A stretch of DNA of 15,697 nucleotides. It comes from Clostridia bacterium (GTDB lineage Bacteria > Bacillota_A > Clostridia > Christensenellales > Aristaeellaceae). A program made the position numbers and the translations under genes. Of this stretch, positions 1 to 15,697 are shown piece after piece (the stretch's first letter is position 1; every line of letters starts with the position of its first letter). Below the pieces are notes generated by a model. That model saw nothing but the letters and a program-made list of their open reading frames with translations, ran no database searches and was not told where the DNA came from. The stretch is taken from positions 1 to 15,697 of the forward strand of contig JAFQIF010000187.1 in the NCBI GenBank assembly GCA_017397695.1, given 5' to 3'.

Positions 1-242
1 AGCACGACGGAGTGCTCCTGCAGGTTGTGGCCGATGCCCGGGATGTAGCAGGTACCTTCGACGCCGTTGGTCAGGCGAACACGGGCGATCTTACGGAGCG
101 CGGAGTTCGGCTTCTTCGGGGTCGTGGTCTTGACGGAGAGGCAGACGCCGCGCTTCTGCGGGCACTTCTGCAGGATGGGAGCGGTCGGCTTTGCAGCGAT
201 CGCTTTTCTTCCGTTGCGGATCAACTGGTTGATCGTAGGCAT
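1..242 (-). CDS. rpsL: 30S ribosomal protein S12, N-terminal part (runs off left edge)
   Basis: Small-subunit ribosomal protein S12, which sits at the decoding centre and monitors codon-anticodon pairing. The first 80 codons are present; the family is usually 124-140 residues, so the 3' part lies beyond the window. Family signatures are plain: MPTINQLIR at the start, CPQKRGVC (residues 27-34), [13 protein letters not shown] (39-51) and [10 protein letters not shown] (71-80). Lys43 of TPKKPNS is the residue whose replacement gives streptomycin resistance in other bacteria; it is the sensitive-type lysine here. The start ATG follows a strong AGGAGGT about 7 bases upstream. It lies 162 bp after the L7Ae-family gene and probably shares its promoter at 722-750. 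By the usual Firmicute order, rpsG, fusA and tuf should follow to the left; they are not visible. Confidence 0.97.
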
Positions 243-404
243 GGAAGCACCTCCTATGTTTCTTTCAAAAAATCTTGGAACACTTCTTGCTGATATATCT
301 ATATGAACCCGCGTCATGCAGGGCCATATCAAAAAGGGAATTGCGCTTTCGCGCCAAAAGAGCCGGCATGCCGGTGGCTGCCGGTATTATGCCCGCCGGA
401 GCGC

Positions 405-650
405 TTACTTAAGCAGACCGGCGGCAGCTGCCTTCACATCGATGGCGCAGGCACGTCCGAGCTTCTCCATGGATTCCACCTGGGTGCAGGGGATATTCAT
501 GTCGTAGCAGCGATCCGATACACGCTTGGTCAGAAGCAGATCCGCATCGGCGGCGACATAGGCGTGGGCAATCCTGCCCTCATCCAGCGCACGCAGCAGC
601 TGCTTGGTACCAACGACCCGTCGACTCGCGTCGGCAAGAGCCTCATGCAT
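405..650 (-). CDS. ybxF: L7Ae/L30e-family RNA-binding protein (YbxF type)
   Basis: Small protein of 81 residues in the L7Ae/L30e/S12e/Gadd45 family, whose members bind kink-turn RNA. It resembles Bacillus YbxF, which lies just before rpsL in the str operon. Visible signatures are VVGTKQLLRAL (about residues 12-22), a VAADAD..LT segment (32-41) and VESMEKLGRACAIDVKAAAAGLL near the end, closely matching the YbxF pattern VESMKKLGKACGIEVGAAA. The chosen start (MHEALADASRR) gives the normal family length and has an AAGGAAG ribosome binding site about 9-10 bases upstream. A longer reading to 713 would begin at about the predicted transcription start, so it is unlikely. The gene is first in a unit with rpsL and has its own promoter. 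Whether it is a ribosome component or an RNA regulator cannot be told from sequence. Confidence 0.93.
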   Translation of the reverse strand: MHEALADASRRVVGTKQLLRALDEGRIAHAYVAADADLLLTKRVSDRCYDMNIPCTQVESMEKLGRACAIDVKAAAAGLLK

Positions 651-678
651 AAATCCATTCTTCCTTTCAAATCGTCCT

Positions 679-710
679 CTGCGCATAGCTCCCCCATGGA
701 GGTTGCACAG
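679..710 (-). promoter_or_regulatory. Predicted leader stem-loop upstream of the L7Ae gene
   Basis: On the minus strand, CTGTGCA and TGCGCAG pair as a 7-bp lower stem (one G-U wobble). A small AC/CTA internal loop follows, then a 4-bp upper stem CTCC/GGAG with a five-base loop. The element begins about five bases after the predicted transcription start and ends about 28 bases before the start codon of the L7Ae-family gene. An RNA-binding protein could regulate its own message here, but the tandem G-A pairs of a canonical kink-turn are not evident. Visible by base pairing only. Confidence 0.35.
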
Positions 711-721
711 CAAACATAGTC

Positions 722-750
722 ATCATACCACTTCAAAAACCATCTGTCAA
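722..750 (-). promoter_or_regulatory. Sigma-A-type promoter of the L7Ae-rpsL unit
   Basis: Reading the minus strand, a perfect -35 TTGACA (745-750) is followed by a 17-base spacer and a -10 TATGAT (722-727), five of six matches to consensus. The predicted transcription start is near 715, giving a leader of about 65 bases before the ATG at 650. This is the best promoter match in the window. It shows that the ribosomal genes are not dependent on the upstream CotH array for expression. Confidence 0.9.
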
Positions 751-802
751 CTGAAAAAATGCCTTTTGTTGCGCAAATGTTAAATTTTGTCGCCCGTCGG
801 AA

Positions 803-2350
803 TCACGGTGCATATGAAGCAAAAATGCCGTCGAGAATCGGAAAATGCTCTGCCGCAAATGTGATGATCTCATACCCGTCGGCCATGTAAGCCTCGCCGC
901 GCCAGCGCAGCGCGTCGCGCATATACGCGCCCGATGCGTCCAGCTCATGCGTATAACCATCCACCAGGCGCTGCACGTTTTCTTCGCTGAATACCGTTTC
1001 CCGCAGCTGTGCCCACATGTCCGCCAGCATCCGGCGCACACCCGGTACGTCCTCGTCGATCATCCGCTGCGCCACGCCAAAGGAAAACAGGCCATGGTAA
1101 AAATCGTCGCCGTCCTTGAATCGGCCCCAGGTCAGGTCCATATCCCATGGCGCAAAGCTGTACACGGTTCGGCCGCCCGCGCCGTGTGCGATCACATACA
1201 TATTATTGTAGACATTGTCGCTCATGCCGCCGCCCTGCACCAGCAGATAGTAGCGCAGCACAGACGCCATATCGATATGCTCTGCCGCCATGCGCGCAAA
1301 TTCTGCCGCTTCCTGCGGTGTCATCTGTTCCAGCTTCAGGTACGGTGCAAGCGCGTCGAATTCATGTCCTGCCGCCGGCGCATGATACAGCTCGTAGATT
1401 GAGCCTGCGCGCATGGGATTTTCCACATATGCCCGTTCTCCTGCGTAATCGATCTGCGCCGAACGGTATACGCTGTCCATCATCGGCGCGTTCGCGCTGC
1501 GCTTTTGCAGCTCCTCGCCGTCGTCCACCGGCTCCATCATCACATAGACGCCCTGATAGCGATTGTCTGCAAACAGCTCAACATACTGCGTGCTGCGCGG
1601 GCCGTAGGGCTCGTCCTCACCGGCCATCATCGCATAAACGTCCCAGCTGAGCCTGTCGCGCATCAGAGACTGATCCATCACGCCTGCCAGCAGGATGACG
1701 TCGTCCGCCTGGCCGATGCCCGGCACGTCGGCAATCGCCGTGCTGTTTTTCTGTCCGTGCACAAAGTCGATCTTGTAGCTCTTCTTTTCGCTGAAGCTCG
1801 AACCTGCGCCGCGCAGATGTGCAATCGCGCGCGTATCCAGCGCGCCCGCTGGCGAAGCAACCGTCACCTGTGCCGGCGTATCGGCATAGCTGATTGGGCC
1901 GTCCGCCTCAAGCGTCACCACCGGAAGCCCGGTAAAGACGATCTGCGCATAGGAATACTCCGTATCGGTGTAGGCGATAAGCTGATAAGCGTAGCCGTCG
2001 CGCAGCGCATCGGAGCACCAGTCGTAGCTGTAATCATCCACAAAGGCAATGCGCACATTTCCTGCGCCGGGCGCAGTCAGATGCAGCTGCGGCCACTCGT
2101 CGCCCGTGTCCAGTCCGATCGGACAGTAAAACGTATTCTCCGTTTCGTCGTAGCCCAGGCGCGCGCCATGGTTTTCCATCACGGTCACAAGCGGCCTCTC
2201 ACGCTCTGTGCGCGTATCCTCAATATCCCAGATCGCCTCAATATCCATCACCGGCTGCACAACGGGCGCATACGGCGAGCCCATCAGCACCGTGCCTGCG
2301 AGCACGAAAAGAAGCGCCGCGATGAGCGCAAGCAGCTGCAGTCTCTTCAT
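803..2350 (-). CDS. CotH-7: CotH-family kinase-like protein, predicted surface-anchored
   Basis: 515 residues, last of seven tandem paralogues. Residues 6-24 form a hydrophobic signal or anchor segment ending at SPYAPVV. Residues 36-140 are the shared N-terminal module (IEAIWDIED, NTFYCPIG, FVDDYSYDWC, AYTDTEYSYAQIVFTGLP). The CotH core follows: HLRGAGSS (178-185), KKSYKIDF (189-196), MRDRLSWD (230-237), YVELFADNRYQGVYVMMEPVD (256-276), MSDNVYNNMY (376-385) and PWDMDLTWG (401-409). The DN..NN and WDxD acidic residues match the likely metal/ATP site of the family. Glu273 after the GVY motif is retained, as only in CotH-5 among the copies. The start has an excellent AAGGAGG 9 bases upstream, 12 bp after CotH-6. 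CotH in Bacillus phosphorylates spore-coat proteins; the substrate here is unknown. No convincing terminator follows the stop. Confidence 0.92.
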   Translation of the reverse strand: MKRLQLLALIAALLFVLAGTVLMGSPYAPVVQPVMDIEAIWDIEDTRTERERPLVTVMENHGARLGYDETENTFYCPIGLDTGDEWPQLHLTAPGAGNVRIAFVDDYSYDWCSDALRDGYAYQLIAYTDTEYSYAQIVFTGLPVVTLEADGPISYADTPAQVTVASPAGALDTRAIAHLRGAGSSFSEKKSYKIDFVHGQKNSTAIADVPGIGQADDVILLAGVMDQSLMRDRLSWDVYAMMAGEDEPYGPRSTQYVELFADNRYQGVYVMMEPVDDGEELQKRSANAPMMDSVYRSAQIDYAGERAYVENPMRAGSIYELYHAPAAGHEFDALAPYLKLEQMTPQEAAEFARMAAEHIDMASVLRYYLLVQGGGMSDNVYNNMYVIAHGAGGRTVYSFAPWDMDLTWGRFKDGDDFYHGLFSFGVAQRMIDEDVPGVRRMLADMWAQLRETVFSEENVQRLVDGYTHELDASGAYMRDALRWRGEAYMADGYEIITFAAEHFPILDGIFASYAP

Positions 2351-2362
2351 GGCGCTTCCTCC

Positions 2363-3994
2363 TTATTCAAGCCCGCGCATCGTCTGATCGAGCGCGCCCA
2401 TATCCTTAATCTCGTAACGGTCCACCCAGATCTGGCGGTCCTTCAGTGCATCGCCTGCAATTTCGGCCACGCGCCTGTCCATCATGTCAAACCGGGCGAT
2501 GGCATACGAATAGATTTCGTAGGTATCCAGCATCTCGTGGCTGCGCTCCCAGCGCTGCGCGTTGCGGTAAAACGCGCCGGAGCTGTTCAGCGCCTCGTCA
2601 TAGCGGGCCATAAAGGCGTCCATATTCTCCTGATTGAACGCCTCGCTGCGCAGCTCCTGCCAGATCTGCGCAGTGCGCTCGCGCACCACGCCGCCGCAGT
2701 CTAGTCTGAGCATCCGGTTGAACAGATCAAACGAATACCACGCCTCCGCGTCGCGCCCGTCGCCGATGCCCCAGGACATGTCCAGATCCCAGGGCACGTA
2801 GCGATAGCGGACGCTTCCGTCAGCATGATGCGCCCAGATCCCCAGATTGTTGAATTCGTTGTCAATCATGCCGCACGCCTCGATGAACAGCGCATAGCGG
2901 ATCACGGAATCCAGATCCATCAGCTGCATCACCCTGCGGCTGAAGGCTGCATCATCCTCCAGCGCGATCATATCCAGATACGGCCGGATGGACTGAAAAT
3001 CCGTCTCGCCTGCTGGCGCATAGAACTGCTCGTAGCTGTGCCCCAGATAATCGGTGATCACCGGACGCTCGGGGTTGGCGATCACGCCGTCCACCGTGCG
3101 GTAGTAGCTATCCGACAAAGGCGCCGCGGGCGCTTCCTTGGCCATCTCCTGCGCATAGTCGTACTGCTTCATCAGCAGGTACACACCGTGATAATCATCA
3201 TCCACAAACAGCTCAACGTAGCGCGTGTTCAGATCACCGAAGGCCTCGTCCTCACCCATGAAGGCATTGTACAGATCCCAGCTCAGCCTGTCACGGATCA
3301 TCAGCGGATCAATGGAGCAGGCGATGAGCGTCATGTCGTCCGTCATGCCCAGGAAGGGTACGCCCACCTGCGCCCGGCCGCCGGCTTCGCCTCGGGTAAA
3401 TTCCACCTTAAAGCCGTTCTTCGGCGTCTTGTTGAGGCTGGTCGCGCCGCGCCTGTGTGCGCGGCCCGTGGTATCCACCGGCGTTTCACCCGCCCAACTC
3501 ACCGTCACGTCTGCCGGTACATCCTCGTGCGCGGTGATCGCCGTTCCTGCCGTCAGCGTCACGATCGGCAGGCTGGTAAAGACGATCTGCGCGTAGGAAT
3601 ACTCCTCATCCGTGTACGCCAGGATCTGGTATTCATAGCCGTCGCGGATGGCATCAGCACACCAGTCATAGCTGTAATCATCCACAAATACGAGGCGAAC
3701 GTCCTTTGCGCCCGGTGCGGTCAGGTGAAGCTGCGGCCAGTCGCCCTCCAGCCCCATGCCCAGCGTGCAGTAAAATATGTTCTGCTGCGCGTCATAGCCC
3801 AGCCGCTGTCCGTGGTTTTCCAGCCTCGTCACCAGCGGCGTTTCGCATTCTGTGCGCGCATCCTCGATGGCCCAGATCTCCTCAATCTCCCTCACGGGCT
3901 CCACCACCGGCGCATACGGAGAGCAGAACACCACCGTTGCAGTCAGCAGCGCCGCCATCACCAGGATGAGCGTCAGCAGAGCGAATCTCTTCAT
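2363..3994 (-). CDS. CotH-6: CotH-family kinase-like protein, predicted surface-anchored
   Basis: 543 residues. The hydrophobic N-terminus (residues 4-24) ends in CSPYAPVV; the bases around Cys24 do not make a good lipobox. The shared module (36-140) includes NIFYCTLGM, FVDDYSYDWC and AYTDEEYSYAQIVFTSLP. Core motifs are HRRGATS (180-186), PKNGFKVEF (191-199), IRDRLSWD (233-240), YVELFVDDDYHGVYLLMKQYD (259-279), MIDNEFNN (376-383) and PWDLDMSWG (401-409). Lys276 stands where CotH-5 and CotH-7 have Glu. The C-terminal end (SYAIARFDMMDRR plus a tail of about 35 residues) closely resembles CotH-3, so the two form a subgroup. Its ATG overlaps the TGA of CotH-5 by 4 bp (ATGA), with GGAGAG about 8 bases upstream inside the CotH-5 reading frame; this suggests translational coupling. 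The family assignment is firm, the biochemical role is not known. Confidence 0.92.
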   Translation of the reverse strand: MKRFALLTLILVMAALLTATVVFCSPYAPVVEPVREIEEIWAIEDARTECETPLVTRLENHGQRLGYDAQQNIFYCTLGMGLEGDWPQLHLTAPGAKDVRLVFVDDYSYDWCADAIRDGYEYQILAYTDEEYSYAQIVFTSLPIVTLTAGTAITAHEDVPADVTVSWAGETPVDTTGRAHRRGATSLNKTPKNGFKVEFTRGEAGGRAQVGVPFLGMTDDMTLIACSIDPLMIRDRLSWDLYNAFMGEDEAFGDLNTRYVELFVDDDYHGVYLLMKQYDYAQEMAKEAPAAPLSDSYYRTVDGVIANPERPVITDYLGHSYEQFYAPAGETDFQSIRPYLDMIALEDDAAFSRRVMQLMDLDSVIRYALFIEACGMIDNEFNNLGIWAHHADGSVRYRYVPWDLDMSWGIGDGRDAEAWYSFDLFNRMLRLDCGGVVRERTAQIWQELRSEAFNQENMDAFMARYDEALNSSGAFYRNAQRWERSHEMLDTYEIYSYAIARFDMMDRRVAEIAGDALKDRQIWVDRYEIKDMGALDQTMRGLE

Positions 3995-5754
3995 TCGTCA
4001 TACTCTCCGTCGTCTTCGTAATACTCGTCTTCGTAGTATTCGTCTTCGGCGGCCTGCAGATAGCGCTCCATCTCGGCCTGCACCGCTTCGTAATATGCAG
4101 CATAGCCGTCATCATCCTCAAGATGGATCGCGCCGGCCTTCTGTTCGTAATGAGACCGCTCCAGGAAATCCACCGGACCATCGCTGGCGAGAATCATGTC
4201 CATTGCCTCATCCAGCAGCGGCCATCGCATTTCGGCAAAGGTGATCAGTTCATAGCCGTCGGGATACGTCATATCGCTTCCCCAGCGCTCGGCGTCGCGC
4301 ATCAGCGCGCCGCTTTCACCCAGCAGGAACGTGTATTCCTCAATCTTTGCCTCCAGATACTCCAGGCTGAAAACCGAAGTGCGCAGCTGCTGCCAGATGT
4401 CATACGCTTTCTGGCGGATACCGCCCGCATCGAGGCTCAGCATTCTGTCGAGTACCGGGAAATACAGCCAGCGCTCAAATTCCTCGCCAATCTCGTCCTT
4501 CTCAAAGCCCCAGGACATATCCAGATCCCACGGCGCAAGGCGATACTGCATGCCGCCGTCCTGAGCAGGATGCGCCCACATGTACATGTTGTTGAAGAAG
4601 TTATCCGCAATCGCGCCGCCCTGCATCAGAAGCGAATACGTGAGCAGGTTGTCCAGATCAAACAATTCCAGCGCGCGCCGGGCGAACGTCTCATCGTCCT
4701 GTGTCATCGTCAGCTCCAGATAAGGGAGCAGACCCGCAAAGCGCTTGTCAAACGTATCTGCCCCCGCCGGCGCGTAATACAGCTCGTAGCCCGCATTTGC
4801 GCGATGCGGATGCTTGTAGTATTCACGGTCGCGCGAGAAATTCAGCGCCGCCGTGCGATACAGGCTGTCGGTATTCAGGCGGCTGCCGTCCGCAAGGGCA
4901 AGCTCCTCCTTCACATCCACCGGCTCGAGCATCAGATACAAGCCAAAGTATTCGCCGTTTTTGAATACCTCGACATACTCTGCCCTACGCGCGCCGAACG
5001 GCTCGTTATCCGCCGTAAGCTCGGCCCACATGTCCCAGTTGAGCCTGTCGCGCATCTTGGTCTCGTCGTGCCTGCAGGGCAGCAGCGCCACGTCGTTGGC
5101 CGCGCCAAAGCCCGGCACGATAGCCTCTCTCTTCTTGGAGCCGCCGTCCTTCTCGCGCGTAAATTCCAGCTTGTAGCCCTGCTTTTCAAACAGCAGCGTC
5201 GATGCGCCGCGCAGATGCATCCGCGCCGTCGTCACAAGCGGCGCCTCGCCGTAGGCCATCATGGTCACGTCCACGGGAGAATCCTCAGTGGTCAGCTCCG
5301 CGCCGCGGGTATCAAAGCACAGCTGCGGCAGGCCCGTGAATACCACGTCGAAGTAGGAAAACACCGTATCCGTATAGGCGATCACCTGATAGGGATAACC
5401 GTCACGGACGGCGTCGGCGCACCAGTCGTAGCTGTAGTCATCCACAAAGCGCAGCTGCACATGCGAAGCATCCGGCGCAGTCAGATGGATCTCGGGCCAG
5501 CTGTCCGTATGGCTGAGGCCCAGCGTGCAGTAAAACGTATTGGCTGCCGCATCATATGCCAGAGGCACGCCGCAGTTTTCCAGCGCCGTTACCAGCGGCA
5601 CGTCGCTCTCCTGATGCGTATCCTCGATATCCCAGATCTCCTCGATATTCTCCGGCGCCTGCGTAACCACCGGCGCATACGGCGAAGCGAAGACCACCAC
5701 GCCGACAATCACCAGCGCAAGCGCAGCAATCGCCGTCAGTATCCGAAATCTCAT
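3991..5754 (-). CDS. CotH-5: CotH-family kinase-like protein with acidic Tyr-rich tail
   Basis: 587 residues from the chosen start, the longest copy. The hydrophobic N-terminus (4-23) ends in SPYAPVV; the shared module spans 37-142. Core motifs are HLRGAST (180-186), KQGYKLEF (191-198), MRDRLNWD (234-241), YVEVFKNGEYFGLYLMLEPVD (260-280), IADNFFNN (382-389) and PWDLDMSWG (408-416). Glu277 is retained. Unlike the other copies it has a C-terminal extension (about 525-587) ending in a run of Asp, Glu and Tyr (EDEYYEDEYYEDDGEYDE), encoded by 15-bp repeats at 4010-4054. Start choice is uncertain: ATG at 5754 aligns with the paralogues and has AGAAAGG about 11 bases upstream. ATG at 5778 would overlap the CotH-4 stop by 4 bp and add eight residues, but has AGGA directly against it. 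CotH-6 overlaps its end. Confidence 0.91.
   Translation of the reverse strand: MRFRILTAIAALALVIVGVVVFASPYAPVVTQAPENIEEIWDIEDTHQESDVPLVTALENCGVPLAYDAAANTFYCTLGLSHTDSWPEIHLTAPDASHVQLRFVDDYSYDWCADAVRDGYPYQVIAYTDTVFSYFDVVFTGLPQLCFDTRGAELTTEDSPVDVTMMAYGEAPLVTTARMHLRGASTLLFEKQGYKLEFTREKDGGSKKREAIVPGFGAANDVALLPCRHDETKMRDRLNWDMWAELTADNEPFGARRAEYVEVFKNGEYFGLYLMLEPVDVKEELALADGSRLNTDSLYRTAALNFSRDREYYKHPHRANAGYELYYAPAGADTFDKRFAGLLPYLELTMTQDDETFARRALELFDLDNLLTYSLLMQGGAIADNFFNNMYMWAHPAQDGGMQYRLAPWDLDMSWGFEKDEIGEEFERWLYFPVLDRMLSLDAGGIRQKAYDIWQQLRTSVFSLEYLEAKIEEYTFLLGESGALMRDAERWGSDMTYPDGYELITFAEMRWPLLDEAMDMILASDGPVDFLERSHYEQKAGAIHLEDDDGYAAYYEAVQAEMERYLQAAEDEYYEDEYYEDDGEYDE
4010..4054 (-). repeat. Three 15-bp direct repeats inside the CotH-5 acidic tail
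   Basis: Plus-strand units at 4010-4024, 4025-4039 and 4040-4054 each begin TCGTCTTCG; the first two match at 13 of 15 positions and the third diverges after nine bases. Because the unit is a multiple of three, copy changes would keep the reading frame and lengthen or shorten the Glu-Asp-Glu-Tyr-Tyr tail of CotH-5. This is a minisatellite-like coding repeat. Confidence 0.7.
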
Positions 5755-5774
5755 AGCGCATTCAGCCTTTCTGT

Positions 5775-7322
5775 TCATTCCTGTTCAAGGGAAGCAATCC
5801 ATGCCTCCATCATCTCAAAGCGCGCCGAGGCAAAGCTCACGATCTCATAGCCGTCCGGGTAGAAGCTGCCCTTCTCCCAGCGCTCGCTGTCGCGGGCAAA
5901 CGCGCCGGAGTCGCCCAGCTCGCGCACATACTGCGTGATCAGCGCCTCGATCGTCTCAATCGTAAACCCGCGCGCCTTCAGGCTCTCCCAGATTTCGCGC
6001 ACGCGCTGTTTCGCGCCGCCCACATCCAGACCGATCACGCGCTCGGCTACCGCCAGTTCCACCCAGCGGTCGCCCTCTTCGCCTGCGTACAGGCCCCAGG
6101 TCAGATCCATATCCCAGAAGGCGAAGCGATACTTCACGCCGCCATCCTGCTGGTGCGCCCAAATGTACATGTTGTTCTTGACGTTATCGACCATGCAGCC
6201 CGTCTGCACCAGAATATAGTAACGCAGCAGCGAATCGATATCCAGGCACGCAGCCGCCTTTTGGGCAAAGAGCGCATCATCCTGCTCGGCCACCAGATCC
6301 AGATACGGCGCAAGCGCATCAAAGCCGTACGCCATATTGGGCGCGTAGAACAGCTCGAAACCGACCTCAGGATCCGTCGGATCGGCGATCACAGGCCTGT
6401 CGGTCACCATCTCCACGCGGGATACGCGGTACAGGCTGTCCCTGAAGACGGTCTCCTGTCCTTCTTTGCGCATCTCATCGCCGATGTCGTAGGGTTTGAG
6501 CATCAGGTATACGCCCTCGTAGCTGCCATCTACAAAGACCTCGACATACTGGTTGGGCAGGCCGGCAAAGCCCTCTTTCCTGTCAAACGCCAGGTTCACC
6601 ACGTCCCAGCTCAGTCGGTCACGCATCATCGTGCCATCGATGGCAATCGGCAAAAGCAGCAGCTCCTGCGTATCGCACAGGCCCGCCACGCTGCGCAGAA
6701 TCTTGCCGCTGTCGCCGCCGCGGGTGAATTCCACGCGGTAGCCGCCCTTGGGCTTCCAGGTCAGGCTTCTGTCTCCGCGCAGGTGCACGCGCGCCGGGGA
6801 ACGCAGCGCCTCCTCGCCATGCACGCTGAAGGTGAACTGTACGGGCGTATCCAGCTCAGTGATGATCTCCTCGGACGTGATCTGTACAATCGGCAGTCCG
6901 GTAAAGATCATATCGAAATAGGCAAACTCCGTATCCGTATACGCCAGCACCTGATAGGGATAGCCGTCCATCAGCGCGTCCTGACACCAATCGTAGCTGT
7001 AATCATCCACGAACATGAGCTGTACGCCCGGGGCGTTCGGCGCAGTCAGATGCATCTGCGGCCAGGACTCGCCGTTTTCAAGCCCAAGCGTGCAATAGAA
7101 CGTATTCGTTTCCGGTCGGTAGGCCAGCGGCACGCCGCCTAGCTCCAGCGCCGTTACCAACGGCGCTTCGCTTTCGCTGCGCGCATCCTCAATATCCCAG
7201 ATGTCCTCGATATTCTCCGGCGCAGGCGCCACCACGGCAGCATACGGCGAGCCCCATAACACAGCGGCCGCCAAAACGCCCACGAACAGAAGCATACCCA
7301 ACAGCAGCTTCAGCTTTCTCAT
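5775..7322 (-). CDS. CotH-4: CotH-family kinase-like protein, predicted surface-anchored
   Basis: 515 residues. The hydrophobic N-terminus (5-24) ends in GSPYAAVV; the shared module spans 38-143 (APENIEDIWDIED, NTFYCTLGL, FVDDYSYDWC, AYTDTEFAYFDMIFTGLP). Core motifs are HLRGDRS (180-186), KPKGGYRVEF (190-199), MRDRLSWD (233-240), YVEVFVDGSYEGVYLMLKPYD (259-279), MVDNVKNNMY (377-386) and FWDMDLTWG (402-410). Lys276 replaces the Glu seen in CotH-5 and CotH-7. The C-terminus (YPDGYEIVSFASARFEMM) groups it with CotH-5 and CotH-7. The ATG at 7322 is preceded by AAAGGAG at 8 bases; the alternative in-frame GTG at 7340 lies upstream of that site and is rejected. It lies 27 bp after CotH-3 and 20 bp before CotH-5. 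Intact, no frameshift. Confidence 0.92.
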   Translation of the reverse strand: MRKLKLLLGMLLFVGVLAAAVLWGSPYAAVVAPAPENIEDIWDIEDARSESEAPLVTALELGGVPLAYRPETNTFYCTLGLENGESWPQMHLTAPNAPGVQLMFVDDYSYDWCQDALMDGYPYQVLAYTDTEFAYFDMIFTGLPIVQITSEEIITELDTPVQFTFSVHGEEALRSPARVHLRGDRSLTWKPKGGYRVEFTRGGDSGKILRSVAGLCDTQELLLLPIAIDGTMMRDRLSWDVVNLAFDRKEGFAGLPNQYVEVFVDGSYEGVYLMLKPYDIGDEMRKEGQETVFRDSLYRVSRVEMVTDRPVIADPTDPEVGFELFYAPNMAYGFDALAPYLDLVAEQDDALFAQKAAACLDIDSLLRYYILVQTGCMVDNVKNNMYIWAHQQDGGVKYRFAFWDMDLTWGLYAGEEGDRWVELAVAERVIGLDVGGAKQRVREIWESLKARGFTIETIEALITQYVRELGDSGAFARDSERWEKGSFYPDGYEIVSFASARFEMMEAWIASLEQE

Positions 7323-7349
7323 GTGCAGCGCTCCTTTCACCTTTTGTCG

Positions 7350-8975
7350 TCATTCCAGCGGGCCCTCGTCAAAGGTCGTGTAGCCCTGAACGCGCAGCCT
7401 TCTGCCGCGCAGTCCCTCGCTCGTCATCTCCTCGATGCGTCTGTCCATCATTGCGATGCGCGCGCTGGCATAGGAATAAATGTTGTAGTTTTCCGAATAG
7501 CTGTTGGGGCGATTCCAGCGCACCGCATCGCGATAGAACGCGCCGGAATCGTTCAGCTCCGTGTTGTAGCGGTCAAGCAGCTGCCCGATATTCTCTTCGC
7601 TGAAGGCGCTTGCGCGCATTTCCTGCCAGATAGCTGCGAGCCTGTCGCGCACGATGCCGCCGCAATCCAGCGCCACCAGCCTGTCAAAGAGCGGGAACTC
7701 ATACCAGACCTCGGAATTCTCCTCGTCGTCACGTCCCCAGGATACATCCAGATCCCACGGCGCAAACAGATAGCGCCAGCCGTCGCCCTCGCGATGGGCA
7801 ATGATGTAAAGGTTGTTGTGCGTGTTGTCCGTCATGCCGCAGGCCTGTACGTAGAGCGTGTAGCGCAGCACGGAATCGATATCCAGCAGCCTGACCGCCT
7901 GCTCGCTGAAGAGCCTGTCGTCCTCCTGCGCGTACATCGCCAGATACGGCTCGATGCACGCATGGCCCGTCTCGCCCGAGGGCACATAGTGCTGCTCATA
8001 ATACATATTGCGGTGATCCTGAATCAGCGCCTTGTCGAACTCATGTACGCTGCGTCCCGCCAGGCGGTACAAGCCGTCCGTCGCCGCCGCATCCGCGCCA
8101 AGCCGCGAGATCTCCTGCGCATAATCAAAGGGCAGCATCATTACATAAACGCCCAGATATTCGTCGCCCGCGAAGACCTCGCAGTAGGTTGTGCCGCGCT
8201 CGCCGAAGGGCTCGCCCGCGTCGGCGATGCCGTTCCACAAATCCCAGCTGAGCTTATCGCGAATCAGCAGCTGATCCATCGAGCAGGCAATCAGAATGAA
8301 TTCATCCGTCTGACCCAGGATGGGCATCTCCTGCGTCGTCTTGCGCGTACCGTCGCTGTTTCTGGTGTATTCCACCTTGATGCCGTGCTTGGGGCGCATG
8401 CGCAGCGTTGTGTCACCGCGCTCATGCGCGCGCGCGTGCGCGCGCACGCCCGGTTCGCCCGCCTTGCTCACGGTCACCTCCACGGGGATATCCTCGTGCG
8501 GCAGCAGCATATCGCCATGCGTGTCAATCGTCACAATCGGCAGGCCCGTAAACACCAGATACGCATAGGAGAACTCCGTATCCGTATACGCCATGATCTG
8601 ATACTCGTAACCGTCGCGGATAGCGTCGGCGCACCAATCGTAGCCGTAATCGTCCACAAGCACCAATCGAACATCCTTCGCATCCGGCGCAGTCAGCCGG
8701 ATGTCCGGCCACGCATCGCTGTTTCCCATGCCCAGTGTGCAATAAAACGTGTTGCTTTCCGCGTCGTAGCCCAGCGCCTGACCATGATTTTCCAGCCTGG
8801 TGACCAGCGGCGCTTCGCTTTCCGTTCGCGCATCTTCGATCGCCCAGATCTCCTCGATCTCCATCACCGGTTCCACAACCGGCGCATACGGGGACGCACA
8901 GACCACAACAGCCCCCAGCAAGCCCAGCAGCAGCGCCATGCCTGCCAGAAGGCGCAGCCTCATAAATCGCTTCAT
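7350..8975 (-). CDS. CotH-3: CotH-family kinase-like protein, predicted surface-anchored
   Basis: 541 residues. The hydrophobic N-terminus (about 8-27) ends in CASPYAPVV; the shared module spans 39-145. Core motifs are HERGDTT (184-190), PKHGIKVEYTR (195-205), IRDKLSWD (238-245), YCEVFAGDEYLGVYVMMLPFD (264-284), MTDNTHNNLY (381-390) and PWDLDVSWG (406-414). Leu281 stands at the position held by Glu in CotH-5 and CotH-7. The tail after SYASARIAMMDRR resembles that of CotH-6. Although the frame is open upstream to 9170, the ATG at 8975 matches the paralogues' signal region and has AAGGAG about 10 bases upstream; the upstream part overlaps CotH-2 out of frame. A 27-base alternating purine-pyrimidine tract lies in the coding region near residues 176-184. 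A weak hairpin precedes this gene. Confidence 0.92.
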   Translation of the reverse strand: MKRFMRLRLLAGMALLLGLLGAVVVCASPYAPVVEPVMEIEEIWAIEDARTESEAPLVTRLENHGQALGYDAESNTFYCTLGMGNSDAWPDIRLTAPDAKDVRLVLVDDYGYDWCADAIRDGYEYQIMAYTDTEFSYAYLVFTGLPIVTIDTHGDMLLPHEDIPVEVTVSKAGEPGVRAHARAHERGDTTLRMRPKHGIKVEYTRNSDGTRKTTQEMPILGQTDEFILIACSMDQLLIRDKLSWDLWNGIADAGEPFGERGTTYCEVFAGDEYLGVYVMMLPFDYAQEISRLGADAAATDGLYRLAGRSVHEFDKALIQDHRNMYYEQHYVPSGETGHACIEPYLAMYAQEDDRLFSEQAVRLLDIDSVLRYTLYVQACGMTDNTHNNLYIIAHREGDGWRYLFAPWDLDVSWGRDDEENSEVWYEFPLFDRLVALDCGGIVRDRLAAIWQEMRASAFSEENIGQLLDRYNTELNDSGAFYRDAVRWNRPNSYSENYNIYSYASARIAMMDRRIEEMTSEGLRGRRLRVQGYTTFDEGPLE

Positions 8976-9000
8976 GTCCCCGTTTCTCCTTTCCGGCGAT

Positions 9001-9036
9001 ATGCCAAAGAAGGCGGAGCCAAATGCTGCCGCCTGA
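9001..9036 (-). terminator. Weak stem-loop between CotH-2 and CotH-3, possible attenuator
   Basis: About 10 bp after the CotH-2 stop, AGGCGG (9029-9034 as read on the minus strand) can pair with CCGCCT (9011-9016) around a 12-base loop, followed by TTCTTTGG. The stem is only 6 bp and the T run is broken, so at best a partial terminator. It sits in the longest gap of the array (68 bp) and at the border between the CotH-1/2 and CotH-3..7 subgroups. Confidence 0.35.
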
Positions 9037-9043
9037 TGGGTGA

Positions 9044-10756
9044 TTATTCCTGATGAATGGCGTTTTCGTGCGGCCAGAACTGGCTGAGCTGCCTGTCGAT
9101 GGTATTCAGATGCTCCATCGCAAAGCCGAGCACCTCGCCAAGGCTCAGCTCCTGCGCGCCGCCCTGCCATTTCTCCGTCTCGCGCAGGTACGCGCCGGAA
9201 CGGTTGATCATGTCCTCAAAATCCTGGAAGCGCGTGTACATCGCATCGTCAGAGACGATGGTCTGCCGCTTCTCATTCCAGATTTCCCACAGAATATCCT
9301 GTGCGCCGCCGATGTTCATATCCAGCATGCGCCAGGTCTGCTTATGATACAGGTTGATGATGTCGCTGTCTGAGCCAAACATTTGGGTAAACGCCATGTC
9401 CATGTCCCAGGGCGAGAGATGATAGACGAAATGATCGCCGTCGCGCAGAGCCCACATGTACACATTATTGAACACGTTGTCGTGGCCCAGGCCCGCCGCC
9501 TGCACATACAGGAAATACTCCAGCAGCTCGCGCACATCCGCCGTCTTCGCGCAGACCTCGGCAAAGGTTTCGTCATCGAGCAGCTTGCCCGCCTGATCGT
9601 TCATCAGCTCATACGGCTTAAAGCGGTCAAACGCCTTCTGGTTGAACTGGCCCTGCGGCGCATAGCGCAGCTCCGCCCAGAATTCAACCGTATCCATCCA
9701 GTCGGCACGCGGCTTATCGCCCTCGTTCACGGGCTTGATCACGCGCGCCACATAGTCCGTACCCAGATTGCCGCCCATGCGCACAATCTCGCTCTCTTCG
9801 TTGATGCGCTGCATCACCTGATAAAGGCCCACGTATTCGTCGTCGAGGAACACCTCGACCATCTGGCTCTGCTGGAGCATGAACGCTTTGCCGTCCGGGT
9901 TCCAGTCCCGCCACAGCTGCCAGGCCAGCTCGTTGCGCGAGCAGGTCGGATCCGCCGCATTGGCAATGAGCAGCCAGTCCGTATCTGCCGGCATGCCCAG
10001 CACGCTGCGCAGCGCCTTGTCGTCGCCCGTGGGCGTCATCTCGTGGAATTCCACGCGGAAGCTCCACTTCGGATATTCCTTCACAAATCCGCCGCCGCGC
10101 AGATGCACCCATGCGCCGGAATTGATCGCCTCATGATCCGCACTGGACACGGCAGCACGCGCAGGGATGTATTCCTCGCCCAGCGCCTCTTCTCCGCCGT
10201 GCACATGCAGCGTCACAATCGGCAGGCCGGTAAAGACCACGCCGAAATAGGCATATTGCGTATCGGTATACGCCATCAGCTCATAACGATAGCCGTCGCG
10301 GATGGCGTCGCTGCGGTAATCATAGGTGTAGTCATCGATCCAGGCTACGCGCAGGTTCTCTGCGCCTGCCGCGCCCTGCGCAAAGAGCGCAAGCTCCGGC
10401 CAGTCGCCTGTATCCTCCATGCCCAGCGTGCAGTAGAACGTATTGCTCTCGCGGTCAAAGCCCATTTCGCTCTGGCCATTGCGCATGCCGATCACCAGCG
10501 GCGTCTCCCAGCATTCCTCGCGCGTATCTTCGATTTCCCAGGCGTCCTCCAGCTCCATAACGGGCTCCACGGCCGCGTCCGCTTTCATCTGCGGGCTTTG
10601 GGCCAGCATGGCGAGCATGGGCTTCACCATGTGATCCGCATCGTTTGCGTCCACAGCGCCCTGCCCGCTGGAAAGCAGATGCGCAGCAGGCAGCAATACA
10701 GCGACCAGCAGCAATACCGCCAGTCCCGTGCCGATTATCTTTCTTCTCATGTGCAT
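9044..10756 (-). CDS. CotH-2: divergent CotH-family kinase-like protein, predicted surface-anchored
   Basis: 570 residues. MHMRRK is followed by a hydrophobic segment (about 7-29), then a linker of about 35 residues absent from CotH-3..7, then the shared module (67-179; IEDTRE, NTFYCTLGM, WIDDYTYDY, AYTDTQYAYFGVVFTGLP). Core motifs are HLRGGG (218-223), PKWSFRVEF (229-237), SRNELAWQ (273-280), VEVFLDDEYVGLYQVMQRIN (300-319), GHDNVFNNVY (424-433) and PWDMDMAF (449-456). WDxD and DN..NN remain, but the WG after WDxD and the RDxLSWD motif of CotH-3..7 are altered, and Gln316 replaces the Glu. The start at 10756 is preferred over 10762 and 10750. GGTGA lies six bases upstream, and the start region parallels that of CotH-1 base for base (GGTGA, six bases, ATGCACA). 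It follows CotH-1 after 30 bp. Confidence 0.9.
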   Translation of the reverse strand: MHMRRKIIGTGLAVLLLVAVLLPAAHLLSSGQGAVDANDADHMVKPMLAMLAQSPQMKADAAVEPVMELEDAWEIEDTREECWETPLVIGMRNGQSEMGFDRESNTFYCTLGMEDTGDWPELALFAQGAAGAENLRVAWIDDYTYDYRSDAIRDGYRYELMAYTDTQYAYFGVVFTGLPIVTLHVHGGEEALGEEYIPARAAVSSADHEAINSGAWVHLRGGGFVKEYPKWSFRVEFHEMTPTGDDKALRSVLGMPADTDWLLIANAADPTCSRNELAWQLWRDWNPDGKAFMLQQSQMVEVFLDDEYVGLYQVMQRINEESEIVRMGGNLGTDYVARVIKPVNEGDKPRADWMDTVEFWAELRYAPQGQFNQKAFDRFKPYELMNDQAGKLLDDETFAEVCAKTADVRELLEYFLYVQAAGLGHDNVFNNVYMWALRDGDHFVYHLSPWDMDMAFTQMFGSDSDIINLYHKQTWRMLDMNIGGAQDILWEIWNEKRQTIVSDDAMYTRFQDFEDMINRSGAYLRETEKWQGGAQELSLGEVLGFAMEHLNTIDRQLSQFWPHENAIHQE

Positions 10757-10786
10757 CTGCATTCACCCATCCGTTTCTGTGTTTAT

Positions 10787-12487
10787 TTATTGCTGTCCTT
10801 CAAGCGGCCAGCGCTCGTTCAAAGTGGTCTCTACGGTCCACATATGTTCAATTTCAAAGGTGAGAATCTGCGACAGATTCAGTTCATATGCGCCGCCGCG
10901 CCATTTATTCGCCTCGCGGCGATATGCACCGGACCCGTTGACATACTCCTGTACATCTATGATCCATTTTTCCAGTTCGGAATCCATGAGCACCGTTTCA
11001 CGCTTCTGCTTCCAGGTTTTCCACAGCTTCTCCCGCGCGCCTGCGACATCCAGATCCAGCAGCCGGGTGGGCAGCACCATGCGCTCCTCGTAATATGGAA
11101 TCACGGAGCCGTCCTCCAGATAGCCCGTCTCCTGCAGGCTCAGGTCCATATCCCACGGGGACACGCGGTACACAAAGCGGTCGCCCTCGCGGATATTCCA
11201 GATATAGAGATTGTTGAAAACATTATCGCCCAATCCGCATGCCTGCATAAACAGATAATACGAGATCATCGCATCCACATCCAGGCAGCGCTGTGCCAGT
11301 TCGGCAAATTCTGCATCACCGAGCCTGTTTTCTGTGCTCATGCTCAGGCGCGCATAGTCCTCAAAATCGTTGAACACGCGCATCGGATCGGCATAGGGCG
11401 AATAACGGCATTCCACAAAGAAGCCGGAATCGGCCGCATAGCTCATGTTCGGCCGTTCGTGCCGGTTGGTTTCGATGACCATACGCACAGCGCTGTCCGT
11501 TTTCAGGCTGCCGCCCATGCGCACAATCTCGCCTTCCACATCCACCGACGGCATCACCTGATAGATGCCCATGTACTCGTCGTCCACAAACAGCTCCGCA
11601 AGACGGCTTTCCAGCATCATCGGCGCGCCTTTCTCCGCGTTCCATCTGTTCCACAGATCGTAGCAGAGGTGATTGCGCACCGCCGTTTCCTCCTGCGCGT
11701 TGCTCAGCAGCAGCCAGTCCGTGCTCGGCTGCATGCCCAGCATGCTGTCTGCTTTCGCCTTGCCCTGGCCTTTGGCCTGCTCGTCGTGCAACTCCACGCG
11801 GTAGGAGAATTTGTCAATGCCCTTGTACACGCCGCCGCCTCGGATGTGCGTCAGCGCCGCCGATTCAACCGCCTCATGCTCCGCAGACGATACGCTCACG
11901 CGGGCAGGCACATAGCTTTCGCCCAACTCGCCGTCATAGCCTATATGCAGCGATACGATCGGCATGCCGGTGAAGATCAGGCCGATGTATTCGTACTGCG
12001 TATCCGTATAGGCCAGCAGCTCGTAGCGGTATTCGTCGCGCAGCGCATCCTCCGGATAGTCGTACGCATAGTCGTCGATCCAGGCCACCTGAACCGACTC
12101 CTGAGCGGCGCCTTCAGCAAAGAGCTCAATGACGGGCCAGTCGTCGCCGCAGTTCATGCCCAGCGTGCAGTAAAAGGTTCGCTCTTCCCGGTCATATCCC
12201 AGTACCGAATTGCCGCTTCGCATACGCTCAACCAGCGGCGTCTCCGCCTCATGGCGCGTATCCTCAATCGCCCACGCCTCTTCGATCGGCATCGGCGGCT
12301 GCACGGCAATGCTGCGGCGCGCATGCTCGTACTCGCGGTACTGATTCAGAGCTTCCACGATCATCCTGCCCTTTTCGGCATCCGGATCATCCTGGGGCAT
12401 GGACAGCAGATGTGACAGCGGCAGCAGGCAAAGCGCCAGCAGCAGGGCTGCCGCACCCGTGGCAATCACGCTTCTTCTCTTGTGCAT
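10787..12487 (-). CDS. CotH-1: divergent CotH-family kinase-like protein, predicted surface-anchored
   Basis: 566 residues, first of the seven paralogues. MHKRRS leads into a hydrophobic segment (about 7-29), a charged linker (31-65), and the shared module (67-177; IEEAWAIEDTR, RTFYCTLGM, WIDDYAYDY, AYTDTQYEYIGLIFTGMP). Core motifs are HIRGGG (214-219), DKFSYRVEL (225-233), VRNHLCYD (270-277), AELFVDDEYMGIYQVMPSVD (297-316), LGDNVFNNLY (419-428) and PWDMDLSLQE (444-453). WDxD and DN..NN are kept; the WG after WDxD is not, and Pro313 stands at the Glu position. It pairs with CotH-2 as a subgroup. AGGTGA lies six bases before the ATG. It begins 37 bp after dapH with no visible terminator between, so it is probably transcribed with the dap genes. 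Substrate unknown. Confidence 0.9.
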   Translation of the reverse strand: MHKRRSVIATGAAALLLALCLLPLSHLLSMPQDDPDAEKGRMIVEALNQYREYEHARRSIAVQPPMPIEEAWAIEDTRHEAETPLVERMRSGNSVLGYDREERTFYCTLGMNCGDDWPVIELFAEGAAQESVQVAWIDDYAYDYPEDALRDEYRYELLAYTDTQYEYIGLIFTGMPIVSLHIGYDGELGESYVPARVSVSSAEHEAVESAALTHIRGGGVYKGIDKFSYRVELHDEQAKGQGKAKADSMLGMQPSTDWLLLSNAQEETAVRNHLCYDLWNRWNAEKGAPMMLESRLAELFVDDEYMGIYQVMPSVDVEGEIVRMGGSLKTDSAVRMVIETNRHERPNMSYAADSGFFVECRYSPYADPMRVFNDFEDYARLSMSTENRLGDAEFAELAQRCLDVDAMISYYLFMQACGLGDNVFNNLYIWNIREGDRFVYRVSPWDMDLSLQETGYLEDGSVIPYYEERMVLPTRLLDLDVAGAREKLWKTWKQKRETVLMDSELEKWIIDVQEYVNGSGAYRREANKWRGGAYELNLSQILTFEIEHMWTVETTLNERWPLEGQQ

Positions 12488-12524
12488 CCGCTGTCACCTG
12501 CCCATGTTTTTTCTTTTGCGCGGC

Positions 12525-13217
12525 TTACAGCTCACGCAGCGCATCCACCAGCGCGGTCTTGGCGCTGGTCTTCTCGTCCTTCATCTTGATCACGCGCGCC
12601 GGCACGCCCGCGACAACCGCATTGTCCGGTACATCCTGCGTAACCACAGCGCCTGCCGCAACCACGGCGTTGTTGCCCACGCGCACACCCTCGATGATCA
12701 CGGCGTTCGCGCCGATCATCACGTTATCGCCCACGGTCACCGGCGTCGCGCTCGGCGGCTCTACCACGCCCGCAAGCACAGCGCCTGCGCCGACATGGCT
12801 GTTTTTACCCACGATCGCACGACCGCCCAGCACGGCGCCCATGTCGATCATCGTACCCTCGCCGATCACTGCACCGATGTTGATGATCGCGCCCATCATG
12901 ATCACCGCGCCGTCACCGATCTCCACGCGGTCGCGGATGATCGCGCCCGGCTCGATGCGCGCGCCGATATGCTTCATATCCAGCAGCGGCAGCGCGCTGT
13001 TGCGGCGGTCGTTCTCGATCACGATATCCTCGATTGCGTCCTTGTTGGCCGCAAGCACCGGCTCGATGTCGGCATAGTCGCCGATAACGACCATATCCGT
13101 GCCGGTAAACACGTGGCAGTTTTCAAAGGCAAGCGGCTTGCTCACCTTGATATAGGCCTTCACCGGCGTCTTCTTCTTCGCCGAGCGAATCGCCTCGATA
13201 ATCTCGTATGCATCCAT
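12525..13217 (-). CDS. dapH: 2,3,4,5-tetrahydropyridine-2,6-dicarboxylate N-acetyltransferase
   Basis: Transfers an acetyl group from acetyl-CoA to tetrahydrodipicolinate, the committed step of the acetylase branch of diaminopimelate/lysine synthesis (also called dapD in some annotations). The 230 residues match the DapH layout: an N-terminal alpha/beta domain (1 to about 80, with PVKAYIK and [14 protein letters not shown]), then a left-handed beta-helix of hexapeptide repeats (about 85-205). That helix carries [60 protein letters not shown] and ANAVIIEGV. It ends with [17 protein letters not shown], as in the Bacillus enzyme. The ATG at 13217 gives the family's MDAxEII start and has GGAGG 11 bases upstream; in-frame extension to 13292 would use a TTG and has no family support. 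It lies 105 bp after dapB. Presence of dapH implies N-acetyl rather than N-succinyl intermediates. Confidence 0.96.
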
Positions 13218-13322
13218 CTTTTTGCTCACCCTCCGGGCTTGCTTCCAAGACGTATTCTTCGGGAATAAGGCCCTCGAATACTTCCTTAGCAAGCAGCATT
13301 TTTTCCTGATTCTTCAGCTTAT

Positions 13323-14042
13323 TTATTCTTGCGGGAACAGTACATCTTCCATATCGTACAGGCCCGGCTTCGCCTTGGCGGCAAAGGCCGCCGCCCGCAG
13401 TGCGCCCCGGGCGAAGATCTCGCGGCTGTCTGCCCTGTGGCGCAGCTCAATCTCCTCCATCCTGCCGAAGAAATGCACGCTGTGTTCGCCCACGACCGTT
13501 CCGCCGCGCAGCGCGTGCATGCCGATCTCGCGGCCGCGCTTTCCGGGTCTTCCCTCGCGTCCGTTCACCACAGCGTATTCGCCATGCGGATCGACGCTCG
13601 AAAGCAGCATCTTCGCCGTACCGCTGGGCGCGTCTTCTTTTTTGTTGTGATGCGTTTCGCTGATCTCGATGTCAAAATCTTCGCCCAGCGCCTCGGCAGC
13701 CATGCGCGCAAGGCGCACAAGCACGGTCACACCGGTGGAGAAATTGTTCGCCCAGACGATGGGAATCAGATCGCTTGCCGCGCGGATCGCGTCGCCCTGC
13801 TCGGCGGTCAGGCCTGTCGTGCCGATCACCAGCGGCAATCGCCTTGCAACCGCCTCCATGAGCACCATATCCAGATTGCCGGGATAGGAGAAATCGATCG
13901 CCGCATCCGCATTCGCAATCTCGCCCAGATGCGCATGGTCTCCCGGGCCGACAAAGCCCGCCACGCAGAAGTCGTCGCCCTGCGCGCAAACGCTCTCAAT
14001 CATCTTTCCCATTCGGCCATTGCCGATGACTGCCAGATTCAC
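13323..14042 (-). CDS. dapB: 4-hydroxy-tetrahydrodipicolinate reductase
   Basis: NAD(P)H-dependent reductase that converts the DapA product to tetrahydrodipicolinate. 239 residues, slightly short for the family. The Rossmann nucleotide-binding motif GNGRMG lies at 7-12, GTTG at 74-77, ANNFSTGV at 98-105, and the catalytic and substrate-binding stretch ETHHNKKEDAPSGTA at 129-143 (His131/His132, Lys135). The start is a GTG at 14042 that overlaps the dapA TGA by 4 bp (GTGA), with GGAGGT six bases upstream. A longer reading from 14099 would put 19 non-family residues, overlapping dapA out of frame, before the Rossmann motif. The overlap makes translational coupling with dapA likely. The gene acts in the cytosol, second of three consecutive dap genes. 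Confidence 0.96.
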   Translation of the reverse strand: MNLAVIGNGRMGKMIESVCAQGDDFCVAGFVGPGDHAHLGEIANADAAIDFSYPGNLDMVLMEAVARRLPLVIGTTGLTAEQGDAIRAASDLIPIVWANNFSTGVTVLVRLARMAAEALGEDFDIEISETHHNKKEDAPSGTAKMLLSSVDPHGEYAVVNGREGRPGKRGREIGMHALRGGTVVGEHSVHFFGRMEEIELRHRADSREIFARGALRAAAFAAKAKPGLYDMEDVLFPQE

Positions 14043-14911
14043 CTGAGCACCTCCAGCGCGCAGCGGACCTTCTCGCGGCCTGCGTCGGAGATCTCGCACA
14101 GCGGCAGGCGATAGCCGCCCACACCCATACCCAGCTGGTTCATCGCTTCCTTGATCGGAATCGGATTGACCTCGCAGAAGAGGGTGTTGATCAGTTCCAG
14201 ATATTTGAGCTGGATCTCTCGCGCCTTCGCTACATTGCCTGCAGCAAACGCCGCCACCAGATCATGACTCTCCTTCGGACAGATATTCGCCCACACGGAG
14301 ATTACACCCACCGCACCCAGGCTCATCATCGGCACGATCATATCGTCGTTGCCGGAGAACATGCAGAAATCGTCGTTCAGCAGCTTGGCGATCTGCGCCG
14401 CATAGCTGATATTGCCGCTGGCCTCCTTGATGCCCGCCACATTCGGATGCTTTGCCAGCCTCGCGCAGCAAGCCGGAGAGATGGCGCAGCCCGTGCGGCC
14501 CGGTACATTGTACAGGATGATCGGCGTATCGACCGTATCCGCTACCGTGGCAAAATGGCGGTACATACCCTCGTCATTCGCCTTGTTATAATACGGGGTG
14601 ATCAGCAGTAAGCCGTCCGCGCCCATATCGTGATACTTGCGGCTCTTTTCCAGCTGGGTCTGCGTGCTGTTGGAGCCCGCGCCGCAGATAACCGGAATCC
14701 TGCCATTCACCGTCTCGATCACGCAGCGGGCGACCTCGTCGTCCTCTTCGTGGCTCATGGTGCTCGATTCACCGGTCGTACCCAGCGCAACAATGCCATC
14801 CGTGCCCTCGGCCAGATGCCACTTCACCAGTTCTTTGAGCTTATCAAAATTCACGCTGCCGTCCGGATGAAACGGCGTAACGATCGCTACATAGCTTCCT
14901 GAAAACTTCAT
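14039..14911 (-). CDS. dapA: 4-hydroxy-tetrahydrodipicolinate synthase
   Basis: Condenses pyruvate with L-aspartate-4-semialdehyde, the first step specific to the diaminopimelate/lysine pathway, forming a Schiff base with an active-site lysine. 290 residues, normal length for this TIM-barrel family. Visible motifs are GTTGESST (44-51), the YNVPGRTG stretch with catalytic Tyr134 and substrate-binding Arg139, and GIKEASG with Schiff-base Lys162. GSNST (79-83) and FSGND also fit the family. The ATG is preceded by GGGAGGT about 8 bases upstream. It is the first gene of dapA-dapB-dapH and follows a promoter at 14948-14976. The leader is only about 30 bases, too short for a lysine riboswitch. The DapA product is also the branch point to dipicolinate in spore-formers. 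Confidence 0.97.
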   Translation of the reverse strand: MKFSGSYVAIVTPFHPDGSVNFDKLKELVKWHLAEGTDGIVALGTTGESSTMSHEEDDEVARCVIETVNGRIPVICGAGSNSTQTQLEKSRKYHDMGADGLLLITPYYNKANDEGMYRHFATVADTVDTPIILYNVPGRTGCAISPACCARLAKHPNVAGIKEASGNISYAAQIAKLLNDDFCMFSGNDDMIVPMMSLGAVGVISVWANICPKESHDLVAAFAAGNVAKAREIQLKYLELINTLFCEVNPIPIKEAMNQLGMGVGGYRLPLCEISDAGREKVRCALEVLR

Positions 14912-14947
14912 GGTTGGTTACCTCCCGCTTGATCTTAGATAGCGGTT

Positions 14948-14990: not shown

Positions 14991-15022
14991 TTTTATCATT
15001 TCAAGGTATCTGAATTGTATTT

Positions 15023-15697
15023 TTAACAATCCTTGCTGCCAATGTCGCTGCGCATATGTACGCCGTCAAAATGAATCTGCTTCGCAGCGGCATACGCGCT
15101 CTCCACAGCAGCCTTCAGGCTTCCGCCCAGCGCAGTCACGCCCAGCACGCGGCCGCCTGCGGTCACAAACTCACCGTCTGCCATTTTAGTACCTGCATGG
15201 TACACAGTCGCGCCCATCTCCTCGGCCTTATCCATGCCGGTGATCACCTTGCCGCCCTCGTACTTGCCAGGGTAGCCGCCGCTGGCGAGCACGATGCACG
15301 CAGCAGATTCCTGCTTCCACTGGATATCCAGATCGGACAGGGTCTGATTGCGCACGGCCATCATAATCTCCATGAGATCGCTGTCAAGCAGCGGGAGCAC
15401 GACCTGCGTCTCCGGATCGCCGAAGCGCGCATTATACTCGACCACCTTCGGGCCCTTTTCGGTGAGCATCAGGCCCACGTAGAGCACGCCCTTGAAGGTA
15501 AAACCCTCGGCATTCATGGCGTTCAGCGTCGGCACGAGGATCTCGTTCATGGTGCGCTGCGCAATTTCCTGGGTATACAACGGGCTCGGCGCGAATGCAC
15601 CCATGCCGCCGGTATTCGGGCCCTGATCGTTGTCATACACGCGCTTGTGATCCTGACTGGCGCGCATCGGCACGATGGTCTTGCCGTCGCAGAAACA
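15023..15697 (-). CDS. purD: Phosphoribosylamine-glycine ligase, C-terminal part (runs off right edge)
   Basis: ATP-grasp enzyme that joins glycine to 5-phosphoribosylamine, the second step of de novo purine synthesis. 224 residues are present of a usual 420-430; the N-terminal half lies beyond the window. The frame is open to the last base (CFCDGKTIVPM), so the ATG at 15673 is internal. Family motifs include DGKTIVPM, SQDHKRVYDNDQGPNTGGMGAF, FKGVLYVGLMLTEKGPKVVEYNARFGDPETQVVLPLL (ATP/metal site Glu and Asn in VEYNARFGDPE), CIVLASGGYPG and GGRVLGVTALG near the end. It stops with TAA at 15023, followed by the inverted repeat at 14956-14990. It is probably the last gene of a purine operon and separate from the dap genes, which have their own promoter. 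Confidence 0.97.
   Translation of the reverse strand, partial: CFCDGKTIVPMRASQDHKRVYDNDQGPNTGGMGAFAPSPLYTQEIAQRTMNEILVPTLNAMNAEGFTFKGVLYVGLMLTEKGPKVVEYNARFGDPETQVVLPLLDSDLMEIMMAVRNQTLSDLDIQWKQESAACIVLASGGYPGKYEGGKVITGMDKAEEMGATVYHAGTKMADGEFVTAGGRVLGVTALGGSLKAAVESAYAAAKQIHFDGVHMRSDIGSKDC

Follow-up and report, generated by a model that had tools for sequence, protein, structure and literature searches.

To our knowledge, the function of bacterial CotH is understood mainly from the Bacillus spore coat. CotH of B. subtilis is reported to phosphorylate the spore coat proteins CotB and CotG (PMC7821199), CotH together with a poly-phosphate polymerase (VTC) is described from the pel loci of Gram-positive bacteria (PMC7112168), and expanded CotH families are described from the Mucorales, with 17 cotH-like genes in Mucor lusitanicus (PMC9973265). 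Here we examine a stretch of 15,697 nucleotides from a Clostridia bacterium (assembly GCA_017397695.1, contig JAFQIF010000187.1, positions 1-15,697 of the forward strand; the window) in which seven intact cotH genes form a tandem array at positions 803-12487. The array is real and clearly delimited, an expansion within a kinase family already known, and its genes appear to encode atypical CotH-family (PF08757) protein kinases, their activity being a prediction. The best explanation, to which we give a probability of roughly 55%, is that the array is a repertoire of CotH kinases anchored in the membrane, specific to this lineage, lacking a partner gene and differing in their substrates.

All seven open reading frames (ORFs) run in the same direction on the minus strand, each open and complete, between dapH and an L7Ae-like gene that is followed by rpsL; purD, dapA and dapB lie upstream. 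Every copy matched PF08757, with 80-120 bits against a Pfam gathering cut-off of 23.8, and since these are seven adjacent matches, each with an E of 2e-22 or better, chance is excluded. No NCBIfam profile matched the seven ORFs at E 1. In the alignment RG, the Lys after RG, DN..NN and WDxD are invariant, and the catalytic and metal-binding residues of CotH are kept in all seven copies, the array residues having been equated with B. subtilis D228 and D251 by alignment and spacing. By computation, the array proteins also have the CotH kinase domain fold. An N-terminal hydrophobic segment is present in each copy (best 18-residue Kyte-Doolittle mean 2.45-3.04). Thus the initial annotation, which had proposed seven intact PF08757-type paralogues in tandem carrying these motifs and a hydrophobic segment, was right on each of these points. 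For the spacing it gave gaps of 12-68 bp and one 4-bp overlap. Genes 1 and 2 are separated by 24 bp, genes 2 and 3 by 68 bp and genes 6 and 7 by 12 bp. The gap between genes 3 and 4 is either 9 bp (GTG 7340) or 27 bp (ATG 7322), of which ATG 7322, lying behind AAAGGAG, is the more likely start of gene 4. Genes 4 and 5 either overlap by 4 bp (ATG 5778) or are 20 bp apart (ATG 5754), and genes 5 and 6 overlap by 4 bp at 3991-3994, giving one or two 4-bp overlaps in the array according to the start chosen for gene 5. Gene 3 starts at ATG 8975, base 8978 beginning GAC, while the mechanically derived ORF extends further upstream. The C-terminus of gene 5 (3991-4120) encodes an acidic tail rich in Tyr, Glu and Asp that is absent from the other six copies.

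Table 1. Features of the window, with profile scores and the cut-off where one applies.
Feature	Position	Strand	Profile match	Remarks
CotH gene 1 of 7	10787..12487	-	PF08757, 101.4 bits	class A; nearest to dapH; linker at the N-terminus longer; 566 aa
CotH gene 2 of 7	9044..10762	-	PF08757, 80.5 bits	class A; 572 aa
CotH gene 3 of 7	7350..8975	-	PF08757, 99.2 bits	541 aa from ATG 8975
CotH gene 4 of 7	5775..7340	-	PF08757, 104.6 bits	
CotH gene 5 of 7	3991..5778	-	PF08757, 120.2 bits	start ATG 5778 or 5754
CotH gene 6 of 7	2363..3994	-	PF08757, 117.9 bits	543 aa
CotH gene 7 of 7	803..2350	-	PF08757, 114.8 bits	adjoins L7Ae; 515 aa
N-terminal small beta domain of gene 7	1907..2254	-		residues 33-148; from alignment and AF2 model
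dapH (tetrahydrodipicolinate N-acetyltransferase)	12525..13217	-	TIGR03532, 341.7 bits (cut-off 231.75)	upstream flank; ATG 13217
dapB	13323..14045	-	TIGR00036, 183.3 bits (cut-off 122)	upstream flank; coordinates are those of the stretch searched
dapA	14039..14911	-	TIGR00674, 338.9 bits (cut-off 206.15)	upstream flank
purD	15023..15697	-	TIGR00877, 295 bits (cut-off 288)	cut by window end
L7Ae-like ribosomal protein gene	405..713	-	NF010125, 79.1 bits (below cut-off 113)	downstream flank
rpsL (ribosomal protein S12)	3..242	-	TIGR00981, 129.4 bits (cut-off 112.95)	downstream; cut by window end
Sigma-A-like promoter, TTGACA-17-TATGAT, extended -10	722..750	-		before L7Ae-rpsL; 11/12 consensus

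Compared with CotH of Bacillus cereus and B. subtilis (PDB 5jd9, 5jda), the array proteins have an additional membrane helix and N-terminal domain, and their genes are arranged in tandem, with dap and ribosomal genes rather than cotB or cotG next to them. The clustering with cotB and cotG that would mark a strict spore coat protein H was not found at the array locus, no direct search for these genes having been made elsewhere in the relatives. The topology was predicted to be N-in/C-out in 66/66 array-type proteins, and the single N-terminal helix would anchor each kinase with its catalytic part outside the cytoplasm. An alternative is that the array acts at sporulation like Bacillus CotH, phosphorylating proteins of the coat or exosporium. 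The action of the B. subtilis enzyme on CotB and CotG provides the precedent, and among the relatives, which are draft genomes, the sporulation markers Spo0A (16/16), SpoIVA (13/16) and SigE (14/16) were found over cut-off. However, every copy has the N-terminal membrane helix with a predicted N-in orientation, and in the window the array is flanked by dap, purD and ribosomal genes and not by cotB or cotG, so that a role as spore-envelope kinases is considered rather unlikely.

The array belongs to the same PF08757 kinase family as the CotH of the CotH-VTC pel loci, but there is no VTC gene in the window and the CotH-VTC module is thus absent from it. No VTC match was found on the array contig in any of 14 genomes, although these contigs are short and the fourteenth genome (G023) was searched for VTC alone. 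In contrast, a long CotH frame (912-1244 aa) was found within 3 kb of a VTC match in 13/13 relatives for which both searches were made. The array thus represents another CotH system, distinct from the VTC-linked CotH, in potential spore formers, and it lacks the VTC partner as had been claimed. The many paralogues per genome recall the families described from Mucorales, which are eukaryotic, while the kinase-like folds of PI4KII, CtkA, HipA and Fam20 showed 4-14% identity in alignments and belong to other families. The small N-terminal beta domain recognised in gene 7 is present in the other six window copies according to the alignment, and an AlphaFold2 (AF2) model of the gene 7 domain by itself gave a predicted local distance difference test (pLDDT) score of 94.4. 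This conserved domain, which the array brings to light, is nearly confined to this Clostridia lineage, no Pfam family matched it above noise, and no counterpart of it or of the genomic setting was found in the literature searched. A further alternative is that the CotH-fold proteins act on non-protein targets such as a surface glycan or teichoic acid, or have a binding function at the surface, with the N-terminal domain binding glycan; we regard this as improbable.

The distribution of the array was examined by scanning GTDB species contigs with the alignment of the seven sequences, followed by profile searches of ORFs and flanking genes. The scan gave 18 loci, the nearest relatives found, all in metagenome-assembled genomes titled as Clostridia, Clostridiales or, in two cases, Candidatus Ventricola, and where a source was titled it was animal rectum, colon or cecum. 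The common arrangement was dapH-[cotH]n-L7Ae-rpsL, in which, counted with dapH to L7Ae on one contig, n was one in G007, G010, G012, G016 and G023, two in G011, three plus a fragment in G013, four in G009, five in G005 and six in G001, G004 and G008. The seven copies of the window are the highest number among the slots seen. G002 has six copies before L7Ae with ∼5.4 kb of other ORFs between these and dapH, and contig ends cut the arrays of G003 (at least five copies) and of G006 and G014 (at least one each). In G019 and G024 the slot is empty, dapH being followed directly by L7Ae-rpsL, and in G026 ∼0.9 kb between dapH and L7Ae contains no cotH match. Copy number, which the initial annotation had proposed comparing across related Clostridia, does vary, the relatives having from zero to six copies at one fixed site. 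In the genus-level set of G001, array-type CotH was found at E 1e-60 in 18/29 genomes. Of 148 genomes drawn at class level, 54, G001 included, contained PF08757 at E 1e-15 or better, and among the matches listed no genome except G001 had three or more adjacent PF08757 genes; the ten matches of one genome were spread over ten contigs. Such arrays thus look rare, in agreement with the suggestion that a seven-copy array lacking partners is unusual.

The history of the copies was examined using a tree of 68 array-type proteins, in which array copies group across genomes by position. Gene 7 groups with the last array gene of G1, G2, G3, G4 and G5, and the gene 5 group is represented in the window and in each of the seven further genomes that have at least four copies. 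Gene 3 groups with G1_1, G8_2, G2_3 and G5_2, gene 4 with G5_3 (support 100/100) and gene 2 with G2_2, G5_1 and G3_1 (100/100), while gene 6 was placed, weakly supported (83/42), beside G1_4, G8_5 and G9_3. For gene 1 the tree of 68 proteins contains no close orthologue; its metagenome relatives (P0122-P0133) are 52-79% identical across almost the whole length. The class to which genes 1 and 2 belong is at the dapH end whenever it is inside the slot, and the order of the eight arrays, using hand-set labels, agreed in 113/114 pairwise comparisons. In a tree of flanking genes, rooted at the midpoint and with G3 filling just 14% of the columns, the window forms one branch (97/98) with the seven further genomes that have at least four copies. 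Most duplications seem to predate the split of these genomes and to have been followed by loss, gain and decay. Recent gains are represented by the pairs G3_3/G3_4 and G11_1/G11_2. Decay is seen in G13 and G3, where G013 has a 138-aa frame holding a C-terminal remnant (L013:13392-13805) and G003 a remnant of ∼60 residues between its first two array copies (L003:1438-1827). These scored 62 and 37 bits, respectively, to the array profile and had no match in Pfam. The statement that every copy is retained is borne out for the window. In relatives, groups have been lost or gained, and two of these genomes carry remnants.

Codon models gave a ratio of non-synonymous to synonymous substitution (omega) of 0.119-0.154 in six orthologous groups, five of which include a window gene, and a model with omega at 1 fitted worse by 177-562 log units. 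For two sets containing recent duplicates omega was 0.229 and 0.168, and for dapA, dapB and dapH, taken from seven of the genomes, it was 0.052, 0.110 and 0.032. The orthologous groups are under purifying selection, and the ratio near 1 expected of drift was not seen in any of the six. Within the groups evolution is conservative, and a fast diversifying set is not supported. Another alternative is that the tandem copies are redundant and owe their presence to recent duplication, to dosage or to drift. The recent pairs and the remnants might be cited for it, but it is largely refuted by the cross-genome orthologous groups and the low omega (0.12-0.15), the other six window copies being just 33-47% identical to gene 7 and having orthologues or close relatives elsewhere, and this explanation is very improbable.

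In the reading as a repertoire of kinases with different substrates, duplications that arose at one chromosomal slot in one Clostridia lineage were mostly kept as separate orthologous genes, the likely reason being that each copy has its own exported or envelope protein to phosphorylate. The columns that separate the orthologous groups are concentrated after the kinase hinge and sparse in the N-terminal domain, and this segment would be where the orthologous genes differ most consistently. The shared N-terminal domain probably positions the kinases or binds a common partner. A fuller scheme, which is tentative and which we hold at less than even odds, is that a cotH gene bearing a new N-terminal domain became established between dapH and L7Ae-rpsL and expanded there up to seven-fold, each orthologue having its own envelope or secreted substrate by way of the diverged segment after the hinge and the N-terminal domain serving as a shared docking part. 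The earlier suggestion of surface kinases with different substrates is thus consistent with the topology and the clustering of columns, while location, activity and substrates stay predictions.

Several points weigh against this. Substrates and activity of the array kinases are predicted, and phosphorylation outside the cytoplasm would call for a supply of ATP that the scheme does not account for. Columns were ranked by mutual information, which tends to pick out variable positions, and variability is highest in the region 276-330 (mean entropy 2.44); a stricter column filter is a partial answer only, as its thresholds were picked after the first ranking, and the region borders were hand-set from the model. 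The NG86 ratios of gene 6, 0.33-0.48, are the top of the window, and array copies are gained and lost over time. The sporulation genes of the relatives may leave room for a spore role. Sigma-A-like sites before the first cotH gene of relatives showed no clear excess over shuffles (fractions 0.06-0.48 in G7, G10, G11 and G13). Set beside close relatives that have one copy or an empty slot, the diverged paralogues at this site make up a natural series with which one can ask about the substrates of exported bacterial kinases, changes in their specificity and the source of their ATP.

Array-type genes also occur outside the slot. G002 and G005 have an extra copy between purD and dapA (L052:3428-5401 and L053:13195-14907), and these are sisters in the protein tree (support 100/99). 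Unlinked single genes are present in G004, G009, G027 and G003 (L054, L055, L056 and L015), and in the G009 copy the catalytic Asp is replaced by N. G022 and G027 contain a two-copy tandem with no dap or rpsL genes nearby, and directly upstream of each is an ORF of ∼200 aa (L049:5426-6043 and L051:9526-10107) with a weak match to the array profile, ∼17-19 bits, at the start of the kinase domain only. These ORFs resemble CotH relatives that consist of the N-lobe alone and carry a membrane helix; that at L049:5426-6043 had no Pfam match at E 0.001. The slot of G017 is occupied by a 504-aa ORF (L106:1454-2965) matching ATPase_2 (PF01637)/AAA and not CotH.

The gap between dapH and the first cotH gene is 37 bp and contains no promoter-like site. 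Given this and the sigma-A site before L7Ae, one transcript of dapA-dapB-dapH-cotH is plausible, in which the array would be co-transcribed with the dap genes in the window, with transcription of L7Ae-rpsL presumably starting anew after it. The site at 722..750 is a consensus match only, the window holding 6 such sites against 7.9 expected from shuffles. The L7Ae-rpsL genes are usually preceded by rpoC, and given that they directly follow dapH in the empty slots (L107 and L108) the str operon may be rearranged in this lineage. Between purD and dapA, the plus strand has a 14-pair hairpin with T after it (14956-14990), which overlaps a minus-strand promoter-like site for dapA.
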